Of a stretch of DNA of 64,000 nucleotides, positions 2,073-8,487 are shown in pieces. This DNA comes from Rhodomicrobium sp. (GTDB lineage Bacteria > Pseudomonadota > Alphaproteobacteria > Rhizobiales > HXMU1428-3): positions 62,001-126,000 of the forward strand of contig BQJK01000004.1 in assembly GCA_021604665.1 (NCBI GenBank). Direction: 5' to 3'. A program made the position numbers and the translations under genes. The notes under the pieces are model-generated. The model was not told the origin of the DNA. It saw nothing but the letters and a program-made list of their open reading frames with translations, and made no database searches. Each line of letters begins with the position of its first letter. Within the stretch, counting starts at the first letter, position 1.

Positions 2073-4790
2073 TTGAACCAGAAGAATATGCACTCACAAT
2101 CAAATCACCCTCAAAGTGAGACATCATCTCACACAGAAAAACGACATGAGGGTGAACGCCTCCTGACCCGCAAATTACGCTGGAGCAAATTTGCCATCCT
2201 ATTGGAGCGCTTATGGCTGCGCCTCTGGGCCCCGGCCAGTGTTATCGCCATCTTTGTTATAGTCTCTCTGTTTGGTCTCTGGTCCTATTTAAACCCGCTT
2301 GCTCACCGGCTTCTGCTGGCAGTTTTCCTGTTTGCGCTCGTTGGTGCACTCATCCCCTTACTCTCACTACGCTGGCCGCGAGACGCAGAAGCCCTGCGCC
2401 GCCTTGATAAAAACTCAACCCTGCCGCACCAGCCCGCGCAAGCGTTCAGAGACCATCTCGGCCCAGCAATGGAACAGAGCTCAACAAGAGCCATCTGGCT
2501 CCAGTTTAAAGAGCGGTTGGTTGAAAAAATCCGCAATCTTAGAGTTAGCCCGCCCCAGCCCAACACAGCCAGCAAAGACCCCTATGCCCTAAGGGCACTG
2601 CTTCTGCTCACCCTAGTCGCTGGTTTATTTTTTCAAGCTGGCAATATCGGCACATTATTCAATAAAGCCTTCGCTCTTCCCCCAATGACAGACACCAAAA
2701 GCCTGCGTATTGATGCGTGGGTAACACCGCCAGACTATACGGGCCAGCCCCCCATTTTAATATCTGATGGCGGCCGCAATGAAACACCCGGCGAGGCCCC
2801 CCGCACCAGCTTTAAAGTACCCGAAAATTCCACACTTACTATCCGTGTGAATGGCAGCAATATTTCTAGAGTGGCAGTAAAAACCGTAAATGAAGCGGTT
2901 AAAAAACCAACCAGCCAAGCCGCCAATAGGCTGCCAGCTAACCAGAAAACACCCGCTGAAGAGAGCCCGGCTCAGCAAAAAACAGCGAATAAAACCAACA
3001 GCGACAGAAATAAGAAAAGCCGCGAATTTCAGATCAGCTTAAAGAAAGACGGCCCACTCCAGCTCACTTTGGATGAAATTCCCCTGAAAGACTGGACCTT
3101 CACTATCATCGAAGATATGCCGCCAATCATCGGCCTTATCGAAATGCCGGTGAAAGCACAGAGCGGTGCCTTAAAGCTTAAATATCGCCTGGCAGATGAT
3201 TACGGCATCATCCGCGCCAAAAGCCGAATAGATAATGTCACCTTTGATGGCATAGATAGCGCCGCTGAAACAGATGAAGACCGCCGCCCCCTTGGCGACC
3301 CACCCGAATTTCCATTGAATTTACCTCAGCTTGTCACGAAAGAAGGCAAGGCTGAAACCTTTAAAGATCTCACCAGTCACCCCTGGGCTGGTCTCACAGG
3401 TGATCTTTACCTCATTGCAGAAGATGAAGGCGGCAACAAATCGAAAAGCCCGCATATTAAGCTCCTCATTCCTGAAACAGAGTTCACCAAGCCAATGGCG
3501 AAAAATATCATTCGCCTGAGAAAGCAATTGATCATCGCGCCCTATGAATCGCGCCTCGTGGCCCGCTCTATCAGCGCCTTAAAAAGAGATAAAAAACCAT
3601 TTGAAAAAGACCTGACCCTTTATCTAGGCCTCGGCATCGCAGCAAACCGACTTGATAACGCCGTGTCCCGCCGGGAAAAAGAAGAAGTCGCCAGCCTGCT
3701 CTATAAGTTGGCCCGCCATGTTGAAGATGGCGACCTCTCAGCAGCCGAGCGCGAATTACGCACGGCACAAGAAGCGCTGCGCAAAGCTTTAGAGCAGAAC
3801 GCCCCGGCTAATGAGCTGCAAAAACGCATTGATGAGCTGAGAAAAGCCCTGCAAAAATATATGCAGGCCCTAGCCAAACAACAAGAAAAGCAAAACGCAC
3901 AGAATAATCAAAACCAACAAGATCAGAACGGTCAGGATGTTAACCCGCAAGATCTTGAGCAGATGCTCAAAACCATCGAAGAGCTTGCAAAATCAGGCTC
4001 TAAGGATTTGGCAAAACAGATGCTCAGCCAAATGCAAAATATGCTGGAGAATTTAGAGACCGGCAAAAACAACAATCGCGATCAGCAAAACCAAACCGCC
4101 AAAGACCTTGAAGAACTGGGTAAAATTCTGCGCGAACAACAAAAACTTATGGATGAGACCTACCAGGAGCGCCGCCAGAGCCAGCAGCAAAACCGTGAGC
4201 GCATGCGCCAGCAACAACAAGGTGACCGTCCCAGCCAACAACAGGGCCAGCGCGGTGGCAAGCAACAGCCCGGCCAGAAAGGCCGCCAGCAAATGGGGCA
4301 AAATGGACAACACAGCCAACAAGGTCAATCGCTAGAGCAGCAGCAGCAATCCTTGCAGGAGAAGTTAAAACAACTCATGGATCAGATGCGCCGCCAACAA
4401 GGCGGCAAAGGCCAGCAATCACTGGATAATGCCCGCGATGCCATGGGCCGTGCCCAACAGCAGTTAAAAGGCGATAATCTTGGTGAAGCCCTCACAGAAG
4501 AGGGCCAGGCCCTTGATCAGCTTCGCCGCGGCATGGAGCAAATGGCACGCCAGATGCAAAAAGGCCAGCCCGGCAAAGGCGGCGGCAAACGCACTGGCGG
4601 CAGAGATCCCCTTGGCCGCCCCGGAAGCCCAAGCGGTCTTGACACAAGTGAGAGCACCAAAGTGCCTGATGAAATTGAAATTCAGCGCGCTAGAGAAATC
4701 CTGCGCAACCTGCAGGACAAGCTGAGCGATCCAAACCGCCCGGCCCCCGAAATAGATTATTTCGAGCGCTTACTTAAGCGGTTCAATTAA
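2073..4790 (+). CDS. DUF4175 (TIGR02302 family) membrane protein with Gln-rich coiled-coil tail
   Basis: A 905-residue protein of the TIGR02302/DUF4175 family, conserved in alphaproteobacteria and of unknown function. The N-terminal part has two adjacent membrane segments (about 55-100) and a third (about 172-195). A periplasmic region to about residue 500 follows, with a charged low-complexity insert near 280-320. The C-terminal 350 residues are very rich in Gln, Lys and Glu and should form long coiled coils. The start is TTG at 2073, supported by AAGG 8 nt upstream (2061-2064); an ATG five codons later is the alternative. It follows lysA on the same strand after a 229-bp gap, a recurrent order. 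A cell-envelope role is likely from the topology but unproven. Confidence 0.8.
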   Translation: MNQKNMHSQSNHPQSETSSHTEKRHEGERLLTRKLRWSKFAILLERLWLRLWAPASVIAIFVIVSLFGLWSYLNPLAHRLLLAVFLFALVGALIPLLSLRWPRDAEALRRLDKNSTLPHQPAQAFRDHLGPAMEQSSTRAIWLQFKERLVEKIRNLRVSPPQPNTASKDPYALRALLLLTLVAGLFFQAGNIGTLFNKAFALPPMTDTKSLRIDAWVTPPDYTGQPPILISDGGRNETPGEAPRTSFKVPENSTLTIRVNGSNISRVAVKTVNEAVKKPTSQAANRLPANQKTPAEESPAQQKTANKTNSDRNKKSREFQISLKKDGPLQLTLDEIPLKDWTFTIIEDMPPIIGLIEMPVKAQSGALKLKYRLADDYGIIRAKSRIDNVTFDGIDSAAETDEDRRPLGDPPEFPLNLPQLVTKEGKAETFKDLTSHPWAGLTGDLYLIAEDEGGNKSKSPHIKLLIPETEFTKPMAKNIIRLRKQLIIAPYESRLVARSISALKRDKKPFEKDLTLYLGLGIAANRLDNAVSRREKEEVASLLYKLARHVEDGDLSAAERELRTAQEALRKALEQNAPANELQKRIDELRKALQKYMQALAKQQEKQNAQNNQNQQDQNGQDVNPQDLEQMLKTIEELAKSGSKDLAKQMLSQMQNMLENLETGKNNNRDQQNQTAKDLEELGKILREQQKLMDETYQERRQSQQQNRERMRQQQQGDRPSQQQGQRGGKQQPGQKGRQQMGQNGQHSQQGQSLEQQQQSLQEKLKQLMDQMRRQQGGKGQQSLDNARDAMGRAQQQLKGDNLGEALTEEGQALDQLRRGMEQMARQMQKGQPGKGGGKRTGGRDPLGRPGSPSGLDTSESTKVPDEIEIQRAREILRNLQDKLSDPNRPAPEIDYFERLLKRFN

Positions 4791-4842
4791 GAGCATTTTG
4801 TTTATTATCTGGAGTGCTAATGCCTGAAAACTGCTGGTAATA

Positions 4843-5235
4843 TCAGCAAAGCCCGGCAATCCGGCTTCTCATAGGCGCATGGCGAAGCGCGCTGCCTACA
4901 GCATCGCGAATATCATCAAGGCTAAAAGGCTTCTGCAGAAATCCGATAACACAAGGCGGGAATTCTTCCGGCTTAACATCACTATAGCCGGTCATTAACA
5001 GCACCGGCAGATCAGGTTGTTGGCGATAACTTAGCCGCGCTAAAGTCACCCCATCAATTATTGGCATCCGAATATCACTAATCAAAAGCTGAAAACAATC
5101 ACCCGGCACCGTCAAGCAGCGCAAAGCCTCCTGCCCCTCATGCGCGGTCATCACAGCATGCCCATCAAGTTGCAATGCACGATACGTAAAATCGCGCACA
5201 GCCAGGTCATCTTCTGCAAGTAAAATATGCGCCAT
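4843..5235 (-). CDS. cpdR: CpdR-like single-domain response regulator
   Basis: A 130-residue stand-alone receiver domain with the acidic pair D9-D10 (LLAEDD), the phosphoacceptor D54 (SDIRMP), T82 (LMTGYS) and K102 (LQKPF), so it should be phosphorylatable. It closely fits CpdR, the CheY-like adaptor which, when unphosphorylated, primes ClpXP for cell-cycle-regulated proteolysis, for example of CtrA in Caulobacter. The ATG at 5235 was chosen over two ATG codons 2 and 4 codons upstream because MAHILLAEDD matches the family start and GGGGA sits at a proper distance. It lies just downstream of the MJ0042 zinc-ribbon gene and near ftsEX. The CpdR assignment rests on sequence pattern and neighbourhood. 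Confidence 0.82.
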   Translation of the reverse strand: MAHILLAEDDLAVRDFTYRALQLDGHAVMTAHEGQEALRCLTVPGDCFQLLISDIRMPIIDGVTLARLSYRQQPDLPVLLMTGYSDVKPEEFPPCVIGFLQKPFSLDDIRDAVGSALRHAPMRSRIAGLC

Positions 5236-5261
5236 GATCATCCCCATAACTGCTAATAGCG

Positions 5262-5321
5262 TTAACTATAGAAGCTGAAGATCAACAGATAGTTAATAAA
5301 TTTTAACGATTAAAGATTTAA
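5262..5321. promoter_or_regulatory. cpdR: AT-rich region upstream of cpdR with several TTAA motifs (possible CtrA-type sites)
   Basis: Five TTAA words occur at 5262, 5293, 5303, 5310 and 5318. The pair at 5293 and 5303 gives TTAA-N6-TTAAC, one base short of the CtrA consensus TTAA-N7-TTAA. It lies 58 bp or more upstream of the chosen cpdR start. CtrA control is only a suggestion: the spacing is wrong by one and the region is AT-rich, where TTAA occurs by chance. Confidence 0.25.
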
Positions 5322-5351
5322 AGGGCACCAACACTTGAACAACTAAATTCG

Positions 5352-6563
5352 CTAGTCCTCAAAGCGCAGCAGCAAATGTTTAGCCGTTGCTGGAGGGGCA
5401 GGGATGTCAGTGATAAAAGGCGCTTTCTCACCCGGCAATAATGGCTTATCCCGCACCTTCGCAACCCAACGGAAAACCTCGCGCCGGTCCTCAGAAAGAC
5501 CGCCAATAATTATAGGTGGCAGTTGTTTATAGCTATTTGTCTGGTTAGATATTTCGCCTTCGACCTGCAATATAATGCGGTCACCAACAGTCCGCCACCG
5601 TTGCTGAACATTGGTAAAAACAATACCTCGCACATTCACTGGCAATCCAATCGCATTATAAAGGCTAGCCATAGCAGGCGCGACACGCACTACAGAATCC
5701 CTAGCGAAAACCATCACCACAGTAAACAACAGCACAGCACTCGCATAACCAGCCCAACCGGCGGCAACCTTCTTATCCATCCGTTTCCAAATTGGCAGAG
5801 CCTGTGGGTCAGGCTCATCCGCCGCCACATCTTCCTTTTCAGCTTCAATTGAGGGATTATCAAACGGATCATCAAGCTCTTCAGACGGCTCGTCAGTCTG
5901 CGCAGTAGGTGCCTCGCCCTGAACACCAGACGGCTCTTCTTCAGCTGCTGCAACCTCATCTAAAGGCGGCGCGGGGTCATCATCAAATAGCCCGTCTATA
6001 TCGTCTTGTGAATTCGGCTCACCATCATCTTCTTCAGCCCCGCTAATTTCAGGCTCATCAAACAGGCTATCAATATCATCCTGTCCATTTTCCTTGCCGC
6101 CATCAACTACCGGCTCGTCAAACAACCCATCGATATCATCTTGGGAGTTTTCTTCAGAAACTTCTGGTTCAGCATCAAACTCCATATCAGGGGTTTCTTC
6201 TGCCGCAGCCTCCATCGGGGGATCAAACAGCTCATCAAGTGCGCCGCCGCCAGCCCCTTCCTCATCCGTAAGATCAAGCTCATCAAACAGGCTATCAATA
6301 TCATCTTGCCCATTCTCTTCGGCAAGCTCATCATTGTCGGTAATATCAAGTTCTTCGAATATTTCATCGGTAGGGGAAAGCGGTGGAATTTCTTCTTCAA
6401 CAGCCGCTTCAAGCGCATTAAGCTGATCAAGATCATCTAACAGGCTGTCATTATCCGCATGCCAAGTGTGGCTGCAACTCGTGCAACGCACTTTCGCACC
6501 TTCCGAAGGCAAGGCCTTGGGTAGTTCGTAATATGTGCTACATTCTGGACAAACGAGTATCAT
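5352..6563 (-). CDS. MJ0042-type zinc-ribbon membrane protein with acidic QDDID repeats
   Basis: A 403-residue protein. The N-terminus has a four-cysteine zinc ribbon of the MJ0042 type (CPEC near residue 5 and CTSC near 27). A strongly acidic region of about 220 residues follows, holding four near-identical copies of N-[GS]-Q-D-D-I-D-[SG]-L-F-D at about residues 84, 139, 159 and 184. One membrane segment lies at about 268-287, and a DUF3426-like C-terminal domain should be outside the membrane. The start ATG at 6563 gives MILVCPECSTYYELP, the usual family start; a TTG seven codons upstream is the alternative. Function is unknown. The repeats resemble the CheY-binding motif of FliM, notable because the next gene encodes the CheY-like CpdR. 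Confidence 0.75.
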   Translation of the reverse strand: MILVCPECSTYYELPKALPSEGAKVRCTSCSHTWHADNDSLLDDLDQLNALEAAVEEEIPPLSPTDEIFEELDITDNDELAEENGQDDIDSLFDELDLTDEEGAGGGALDELFDPPMEAAAEETPDMEFDAEPEVSEENSQDDIDGLFDEPVVDGGKENGQDDIDSLFDEPEISGAEEDDGEPNSQDDIDGLFDDDPAPPLDEVAAAEEEPSGVQGEAPTAQTDEPSEELDDPFDNPSIEAEKEDVAADEPDPQALPIWKRMDKKVAAGWAGYASAVLLFTVVMVFARDSVVRVAPAMASLYNAIGLPVNVRGIVFTNVQQRWRTVGDRIILQVEGEISNQTNSYKQLPPIIIGGLSEDRREVFRWVAKVRDKPLLPGEKAPFITDIPAPPATAKHLLLRFED

Positions 6564-6842: not shown

Positions 6843-7502
6843 TTGATTCGATTAGAAAATGTCGCGCTCCGTTACGGTCGAGGCCCTGAAATCCTTCGCG
6901 ATGTAAACTTCCATTTGCGCCCAGGCTCCCTTCACTTTCTAACAGGCCCCTCAGGCTCCGGCAAAACCAGCCTGCTTCGCCTGCTCTTCATGTCGATCCA
7001 ACCGACGCGCGGCCTCATTCACCTTTTCGGCCAGAATGTAACCCGCATCACCCCCTCACGCCGCGCTGATTTGCGCCGCCGCATCGGCATTGTATTCCAG
7101 GATTTTCGGTTATTAGACCATCTGACCACCTGGGAAAATGTCGCGCTGCCGCTGCGCGTCACCGGCAAAAAACCCGGCGAATACCAGGAAGATGTCACCG
7201 ACCTCTTGCAATGGGTTGGCCTTGGCGAGCGCATGTACGCGCTCTCTCCCGTGCTTTCAGGCGGTGAAAAGCAAAGAGCCGCCATCGCCCGCGCTGTGAT
7301 CGGCAAACCAGAACTACTGCTCGCTGACGAACCAACAGGTAACGTGGACCCCCAAATGGCCCGCCGCCTGCTACGTTTGTTCATTGAGCTAAACCGCCTT
7401 GGCACCTCGGTCATCATCGCGACTCACGACCATCAGCTCATGCAGCAATTCCAGGCCCCGCGCCTGGAATTACATGATGGCCGCATTCATCAGGTAGGCT
7501 GA
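6843..7502 (+). CDS. ftsE: Cell division ATP-binding protein FtsE
   Basis: ATPase of the FtsEX complex, which acts at the division septum and controls peptidoglycan hydrolases across the inner membrane. The 219-residue length is typical. Visible motifs: Walker A GPSGSGKT (35-42), signature LSGGEKQRAAIARA, and Walker B LLLADEPTGNVD followed by the switch His in IIATHDH. The start is TTG at 6843 with AAGG 10 nt upstream; MIRLENVALRYG then matches the normal FtsE beginning. The stop lies one base before the ftsX ATG, so the two are translated together. Confidence 0.94.
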   Translation: MIRLENVALRYGRGPEILRDVNFHLRPGSLHFLTGPSGSGKTSLLRLLFMSIQPTRGLIHLFGQNVTRITPSRRADLRRRIGIVFQDFRLLDHLTTWENVALPLRVTGKKPGEYQEDVTDLLQWVGLGERMYALSPVLSGGEKQRAAIARAVIGKPELLLADEPTGNVDPQMARRLLRLFIELNRLGTSVIIATHDHQLMQQFQAPRLELHDGRIHQVG

Positions 7503-7503
7503 T

Positions 7504-8487
7504 ATGACATATGACACCAACATGCCAGCGCCGGGAGGAAAAGAGCTCTACGCCCCCAAACGCCCGAAAGAGCGCAAATGGTCCAACCAGCCAACGCCAA
7601 TTGTTCAGGCGAAGTCCGTTACCGGCAGCTCGCTTGTTGTTGTGATCTCGATCATGTGTTTTCTTGCTTGCCTCACAGCCGGTGCGGTTTATCTGATCAA
7701 TCAATCCGCCGCCGCCTGGACAGACGACATCGCCAGTGAAGTCACCGTTCAGGTTGGCATCGACAGCAAAGGCAATATTGATGACAAACTGTCAAAGGTC
7801 GCCTTCTTCCTGACCAATCAAAGCGGTGTGAATGGCGTACGCCCCCTCCCCGCAGAAGAAAGCTCAGTACTCCTCGAGCCATGGCTTGGTGATGGCGCAA
7901 CCTTAAAAGACCTACCAATTCCAAGGCTTATCGCCGTTGAGCTTGACCGCGCGAACCCACCCAACATGACCGCGCTCAGAGAAACTCTGAATTCCAATTT
8001 CGAAAACACTTCACTGGATGACCATCGCCGCTGGCAATCACAAATCCAAACCGTTACCCGCTCCATGGCGCTTGGCGGCCTGGCTGTATTGATACTGGTC
8101 GGCTTTGCCACCACTGCCATCATCGTTTCTGCGACCCGCTCTGCCATGTCCTCCAACCGGGAAATTGTAGAGGTGCTGCATTTTGTTGGGGCCACAGACC
8201 GCTTCATCGCCCGCGAGTTTGAGCGTCACTTTCTCTCTCTCGGCATACGCTCAGGTCTGGTGGGGGCATCTGGCGCTCTGCTTATTTTTGTTTTTATGCC
8301 TTTTTTTATGCGGCTCCTTGGCGGCAGTAACATGACCAGCGCTGAAATCCGTCGCCTGCTTGGCAGTGCCGCGCTAGACCTGCCCGGGTTCATTCTTCTG
8401 GGCATTGTCGTGGTTGTCATCGCAGCCCTTTGCATGCTAACCACCCGCTATGGTGTTTACCGCATCCTCAATTCGCAGCATCACTAG
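7504..8487 (+). CDS. ftsX: Cell division protein FtsX
   Basis: Membrane subunit of FtsEX. The 327-residue protein has a cytoplasmic N-terminal tail, a first membrane segment at about 43-66, a periplasmic domain of about 115 residues, then three more membrane segments (about 187-210, 243-268, 293-318). This is the four-helix FtsX topology. EVLHFVGATDRFIAREF, before the third helix, is the conserved cytoplasmic loop that couples to FtsE. It starts one base after the ftsE stop. Confidence 0.92.
   Translation: MTYDTNMPAPGGKELYAPKRPKERKWSNQPTPIVQAKSVTGSSLVVVISIMCFLACLTAGAVYLINQSAAAWTDDIASEVTVQVGIDSKGNIDDKLSKVAFFLTNQSGVNGVRPLPAEESSVLLEPWLGDGATLKDLPIPRLIAVELDRANPPNMTALRETLNSNFENTSLDDHRRWQSQIQTVTRSMALGGLAVLILVGFATTAIIVSATRSAMSSNREIVEVLHFVGATDRFIAREFERHFLSLGIRSGLVGASGALLIFVFMPFFMRLLGGSNMTSAEIRRLLGSAALDLPGFILLGIVVVVIAALCMLTTRYGVYRILNSQHH

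Follow-up and report, generated by a model that had tools for sequence, protein, structure and literature searches.

The window, a stretch of 64,000 nucleotides of contig BQJK01000004.1 from Rhodomicrobium sp., encodes on its minus strand a zinc-ribbon membrane protein whose acidic linker contains four near-identical short peptides. A preliminary description of this DNA had placed a receiver gene next to the zinc-ribbon gene, and we find it there, downstream and on the same strand (4843-5247). The genes and features of the locus are as follows.

2073..4790, plus strand: DUF4175/TIGR02302 gene (PF13779, TIGR02302), the convergent neighbour on the other side
4843..5247, minus strand: single-domain receiver, CpdR-like but not CpdR (PF00072; NF046022, 81.4 bits; conserved neighbour)
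5352..6563, minus strand: putative ZitP-type protein, 403 aa (PF13717, 5.4e-11; TIGR02098; AlphaFold2 model)
5361..5624, minus strand: C-terminal beta domain, residues 314-401 (pLDDT blocks of about 82-92; the position of DUF3426 in ZitP)
5706..5774, minus strand: transmembrane helix, residues 264-286 (helix in the AlphaFold2 model, hydrophobic sequence)
5985..6008, minus strand: motif copy 4, QDDIDGLF, in frame
6060..6083, minus strand: motif copy 3, QDDIDSLF, in frame
6120..6143, minus strand: motif copy 2, QDDIDGLF, in frame
6285..6308, minus strand: motif copy 1, QDDIDSLF, in frame
6456..6563, minus strand: MJ0042 zinc ribbon, residues 1-36 (phmmer match to 2nb9; pLDDT about 83)
6843..7502, plus strand: ftsE, divergently oriented, the anchor of the conserved locus (TIGR02673, 277.6 bits)
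7504..8487, plus strand: ftsX (TIGR00439, 69.6 bits, short of the curated cut-off of 255; position after ftsE)

The zinc-ribbon protein consists of an N-terminal MJ0042 ribbon, an acidic disordered linker of 222 residues (85 of which are Asp or Glu), one transmembrane helix and a C-terminal beta domain. In an AlphaFold2 model built from six sequences, the ribbon is predicted with confidence and the linker comes out disordered; residues 264-286 form a helix, and residues 314-401 fold into a beta domain. When the PDB was searched for folds resembling this model, there was no match at E ≤0.001, and the best hits were generic beta sandwiches. By phmmer, the best solved relative of the ribbon is 2nb9 (E 1.5e-4), whose PDB label is merely "Uncharacterized protein" and which we take to be the zinc finger of Caulobacter ZitP.

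Caulobacter ZitP, a membrane protein located at both poles, binds PopZ through its zinc finger (PMC5182063, PMC5182065; here and below, the papers are cited from excerpts of their text). Its ribbon extends to residue 37 and its membrane span covers residues 106-127 (PMC5182063). The window protein resembles it in its N-terminal zinc ribbon, which has equal spacing, in a cytoplasmic linker followed by a single membrane span, and in a periplasmic beta domain at the C-terminus; a PopZ-family (DUF2497) protein is encoded in its genome, as a partial match of 37.6 bits against a cut-off of 27. It differs in the length of the linker, which has 222 residues as opposed to roughly 70 in Caulobacter, and in the four putative CheY-type peptides that this linker bears. 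In the excerpts of the two ZitP papers we found no mention of CheY, a linker or an acidic stretch (PMC5182063), nor of chemotaxis or an acidic stretch (PMC5182065). Because no DUF3426 (PF11906) match is listed for the C-terminal domain of the window protein at E 0.01, its membership of the ZitP family is unproven, as is orthology to Caulobacter ZitP; we treat it as a probable ZitP-type protein. One Cohaesibacter homologue has a weak DUF3426 match (E 0.27).

A repeated peptide shared with CheZ and FliM

The preliminary description had reported four near-identical [GS]QDDID[SG]LFD motifs in the acidic region, and all four are present as in-frame copies on the minus strand. A back-translated QDDIDxLF pattern has five exact matches in the whole genome (2,912,937 bases), four of them the linker copies and the fifth at the C-terminus of a CheZ, and the reversed pattern, used as a control over the same genome, has none. 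Chance repeats were ruled out by shuffling the 222-residue linker: among 300,000 shuffles, one copy arose in two and more than one in none, compared with the four observed. Any two copies show one to five synonymous differences among their nine codons and no more than one non-synonymous difference, and the spacers between copies are unrelated in length and sequence. Together, the synonymous differences and the unrelated spacers imply that the array is not a fresh tandem duplication, and that it is the peptide, and not the DNA, that has been kept. Within the genus the number of copies varies from two to six.

The motifs had also been likened to the CheY-binding motif at the N-terminus of FliM, and this likeness is borne out. 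The FliM residues that contact E. coli CheY are Q8, I11, D12 and L14 (contact table of PMC3774744), and these contact positions (Q, I, D and L at 8, 11, 12 and 14) are kept in all four zinc-ribbon copies. The FliM of the same genome carries ERILNQDEIDSLLG, with a stretch, NQDEIDSLLG, that is identical to an NMR-tested Caulobacter peptide. In Caulobacter, the FliM peptide ASERILNQDEIDSLLG binds CleD, a CheY-like protein, by NMR, and an ID-to-WA change in the peptide led to loss of CleA binding in a two-hybrid assay (PMC5677366). FliM itself differs from the zinc-ribbon protein in that it has a single copy and a motor domain.

Further support comes from CheZ, which shares with FliM one common face of CheY (PMC3774744). 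The fifth match in the genome covers the final nine residues of a protein of the CheZ family, whose tail, SQDDIDALFD, is the zinc-ribbon peptide. The proteins are otherwise different: CheZ is a phosphatase with one copy at its extreme C-terminus, whereas the zinc-ribbon protein is a membrane protein with four internal copies and no phosphatase domain. All of 30 CheZ loci end in a Q--IDxLF tail, which is exactly QDDIDALF or QDDIDSLF in 25 of them. A PDB sequence search with the 26-residue CheZ tail gave no match, chains shorter than 20 residues being probably outside the searched set. A second CheZ in the genome, with the tail SQSDIDDLF, adjoins CheY1, a classical cheY, and a third CheZ-like match (G000:C1:1204108-1204608) lies inside a longer open frame of 544 aa. 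Judged by these sequence comparisons, the repeats are likely to be CheY-type docking peptides.

The adjacent receiver and the chemotaxis CheYs

The preliminary description had identified the adjacent gene as cpdR. This identification did not survive comparison with the NCBIfam equivalog NF046022, a model built for Brucella-type CpdR with a cut-off of 180 bits, against which the window receiver scores 81.4 bits. The true CpdR of the genome is encoded elsewhere (C1:387843, L007) and scores 199.3 bits. Both proteins are single-domain receivers with Asp, Thr and Lys in place, but they are distinct paralogues with 40% identity, and the window receiver falls far under the curated CpdR cut-off.

Docking of CpdR on the motifs had been proposed from the adjacency of the two genes, and relatives that keep the cpdR neighbour and lack the motifs had been named as evidence that would refute it. 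Such relatives are common: the receiver is kept beside 23 of 41 motif-less homologues (in 22 relatives and Pseudovibrio). Because the receiver is kept where the motifs are absent, we rejected their co-occurrence as evidence of binding, and the proposal loses its basis in adjacency. At the positions with which CheY binds the FliM peptide, the window receiver has Phe106, Ala119 and Asp91, and its orthologues most often have Val106 (20/23), Ala119 (19/23) and Asp91 (17/23), as counted in 23 sequences kept by a regular expression from 29 loci. The family score, the neighbourhood survey and the surface residues together set CpdR low as a ligand of the motif. The receiver does not resemble a FliM binder.

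Across the taxonomic order (window positions 4843-5247 and loci L077-L116 and L337-L342), the presence of the receiver at the locus goes with that of FliM. In a table of 47 loci compiled by eye, FliM accompanies 31 of the 32 loci that have the receiver and 6 of the 15 that lack it (Fisher p 3e-5, ancestry ignored); with the genus left out, 25 of 26 loci with the receiver are FliM-positive (p 1e-4, ancestry ignored). For this table, the receiver of G030, which is closer to CpdR than the window receiver, was scored as present; G042, with a weak receiver-like ORF, was scored as lacking a receiver. The association suggests that the receiver may belong to motility, and it may do so without binding the motif peptide.

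Tyr106 and Lys119 are kept in each of the two chemotaxis CheYs of the genome, CheY1 and CheY2; at other contacts CheY1 departs (Thr92, Ala122 and Lys99). Of the original proposal that the motifs dock CpdR or another receiver, the part that concerns CpdR falls away, and a CheY-type receiver stands as a candidate, the key contact residues being kept. Some receiver is likely to be the docking partner, and CheY is a better candidate ligand than the adjacent receiver.

Distribution of the array, and related motifs in PopZ

In 61 genomes (our own and 60 relatives) there are 57 exact matches to the LF pattern, which divide into 21 in the zinc-ribbon gene of six genus members and 36 in CheZ-family genes. 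The arrangement ftsX-ftsE, zinc-ribbon gene, receiver, DUF4175 is found widely across the taxonomic order. Among 49 ftsE-linked zinc-ribbon proteins, the window's excluded, at least two motifs are found in seven, a single one in G050 (NQDDVEALFA) and none in 41. The seven multi-motif proteins are those of five other members of the genus and two from Cohaesibacter. As the motif is absent from most homologues, even in FliM-positive genomes such as G009, the nearest FliM-positive relative, the core role of the protein does not depend on the array. The gene was not matched in the fragmented assemblies of genus members G003 and G005, which were left out of the counts; the motif-less ZitP-like gene of G014 is absent from the set of 49, and G051 keeps the receiver with no zinc-ribbon gene detected. 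In G052 (L085), the array-less zinc-ribbon gene (4347-6005) encodes a linker with a different repeat, around EARTGTL.

The array occurs in a second lineage. Two Cohaesibacter species have seven copies each, in a gene that likewise lies next to the receiver at the ftsE locus, and an FtsE-FtsX tree of 51 taxa, read without its branch supports, places the genus and Cohaesibacter far apart among array-less relatives. A tandem-motif scan of 84,980 species genomes was limited to copies that start with a CAG codon and are spaced within set bounds, so that it misses arrays; it returned 54 loci, 52 of which have at least two copies in one ORF. A CheZ signature is present in 22 of these 52. The other 30 include the zinc-ribbon proteins of this genus, Cohaesibacter and Cohaesibacteraceae, PopZ from Magnetospirillum and relatives and from a Methylopila, and proteins of other phyla. 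In Desulfobacterota and Nitrospinota (L212, L215, L225, L247 and L250), arrays precede an apparent membrane span and a C-terminal domain that by eye resembles FliL, and the L225 protein starts with a zinc ribbon. Three to nine exact QD[DE]IDxL[LF] copies are found in Planctomycete, Verrucomicrobia and Lentisphaera proteins (L213, L246, L220, L222 and L238).

PopZ resembles the zinc-ribbon protein in that it is a polar hub protein and can carry QDD[IL]DxL[FL] motifs in an acidic linker; it differs in that it is a cytosolic scaffold and is not homologous to it. One to three such motifs are seen in the acidic linkers of PopZ at L234, L241, L244, L248, L249, L398, L399, L401 and L428, and DUF2497 was confirmed by profile in the tandem-scan loci L241 and L244. 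The PopZ of G019 (L260) has three copies and that of Magnetospirillum two. In a sample of 54 genomes with a DUF2497 protein, the motif Q[DE][DE][ILV]Dx[LM][FLM] is present in PopZ of 8 of 36 FliM-positive and 0 of 18 FliM-negative relatives (Fisher p 0.041, ancestry ignored), and a looser motif, chosen after viewing the sequences, in 11 of 36 and 0 of 18 (p 0.0099, ancestry ignored). No motif was found in the PopZ of our own genome. Loss of PopZ in M. gryphiswaldense impairs motility and aerotaxis, a defect that the authors tentatively put down to disturbed transmission of signals by the chemotaxis machinery to the motors (PMC6414705); the motif-bearing Magnetospirillum PopZ come from other species (L241, L248).

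A possible role for the array, and further carriers of the peptide

We put at about even (a probability of roughly 0.5) the reading that the window protein is a ZitP-type polarity protein that has gained a CheY~P docking array, by which motor switching is tied to cell polarity. A ZitP-type protein would present its zinc ribbon and linker in the cytoplasm, cross the membrane once and end in a periplasmic domain. In this genus the linker would have gained two to six copies of a FliM/CheZ-type peptide, the ligand of the alpha4-beta5-alpha5 face of CheY~P, and the array would dock the cell's own chemotaxis CheYs. If the zinc ribbon binds PopZ as that of Caulobacter ZitP does, the array would keep CheY~P at the pole, next to the flagellar motor. 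By competing with FliM and CheZ, it could buffer, concentrate or withhold CheY~P at this site and so tie motor switching to polarity. We infer binding, polar location and an effect on switching, and consider it most likely that the array would concentrate or buffer CheY~P at the flagellated pole.

As far as sequence can tell, the presence of putative CheY-docking copies on a probable polarity protein suggests a possible direct link between polarity and swimming, and a CheY~P docking array on a ZitP-type protein would, if real, connect polarity physically to the motor. In Caulobacter, residues 1-133 of ZitP, without the periplasmic domain, suffice for motility, and a mutation in the gene of the switch protein FliG suppresses the ZitP motility defect (PMC5182063). 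A broader and more tentative reading, to which we give somewhat less than even odds, is that Alphaproteobacterial polar hubs (ZitP-type proteins and PopZ) repeatedly acquired the CheY~P-docking peptide of FliM and CheZ, often as multiple copies, and that the polarity machinery thereby keeps CheY~P directly at the flagellated pole; the ZitP-type arrays in Cohaesibacter and in this genus would then be two independent gains at the same locus. In open-licence PMC papers, there was no match to the literal motif strings, and listings of papers on these subjects showed us no report of CheY-docking arrays on ZitP or PopZ.

Other explanations of the array have to be weighed against these data. It could recruit CheZ-type partners, or compete for a third reader of Q-D-D-I-D-x-L-F such as a CheA-independent polar CheZ landmark. 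Azorhizobium CheZ is polar without CheA, CheY1, CheY2, FliM or FliN (PMC7750401), which implies that another polar partner exists, and in most carriers of our class sample the motif lies at the extreme C-terminus. However, according to the same excerpts, it is the N-terminal helical regions of Azorhizobium CheZ, and not the tail, that suffice for polar location, and the known CheZ tail is a place where CheY binds (PMC3774744, PMC7750401). We regard such a third partner as unlikely. We hold at still longer odds the idea that the array docks the adjacent single-domain receiver, with the two genes forming a membrane-bound signalling pair. The adjacency is old and wide, the receiver goes with FliM (31/32 versus 6/15), and the Phe at 106 of the window receiver leaves a little room for it; against such a pair stand the 23 of 41 motif-less homologues that keep the receiver and the orthologues, which mostly have no aromatic residue at 106, no Lys119 and no Lys91.

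The repeats might, alternatively, reflect neutral expansion of a low-complexity acidic linker that has no specific ligand. A copy number of two to six within the genus would fit this explanation, as would the other repeats held by the long linkers of other relatives. It is harder to reconcile with the 300,000 linker shuffles, in which not even two copies arose, with residues that are kept despite synonymous drift and unrelated spacers, and with the appearance of the same motif in the same gene of Cohaesibacter and also in PopZ and FliM. We consider neutral expansion quite improbable and prefer, of these explanations, a CheY~P docking array on a ZitP-type polarity protein.

A census of the class extends the list of proteins that carry the docking peptide. 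In a sample of 385 genomes we opened 73 regions, which hold 75 of 127 pattern rows, namely those with an Ile codon outside our own genome and G041. A script classed these regions as 53 CheZ, two PopZ, one FliM, 16 other and one without the motif. When read by eye, the 16 others consist of two short ORFs that end in a CheZ-like tail (L416 and L418, the latter with LLNGP context as in CheZ), two PopZ (DUF2497; L401 and L428), seven members of an unnamed family, two MCPs and three carriers that look like chance, one dehydrogenase-like, one GlnE-like and one probably an antisense ORF. These carrier classes suggest that most carriers are chemotaxis or polarity proteins. This census shows the peptide to be a portable module, through which more CheY partners can be traced.

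One possible new CheY partner is a family of proteins of about 170-260 aa that end in QDDIDALF and have a TDYxNHxNE signature (L373, L390, L392, L396, L404, L429, L432 and L229). There was no Pfam match in L404, L429 or L392, and no NCBIfam match in two of these. In the chemoreceptor-like proteins L376 and L377, QDDIDxLL lies between an MCP and a photoactive-yellow-protein-like domain, as recognized by profile in L376 and by likeness in L377.
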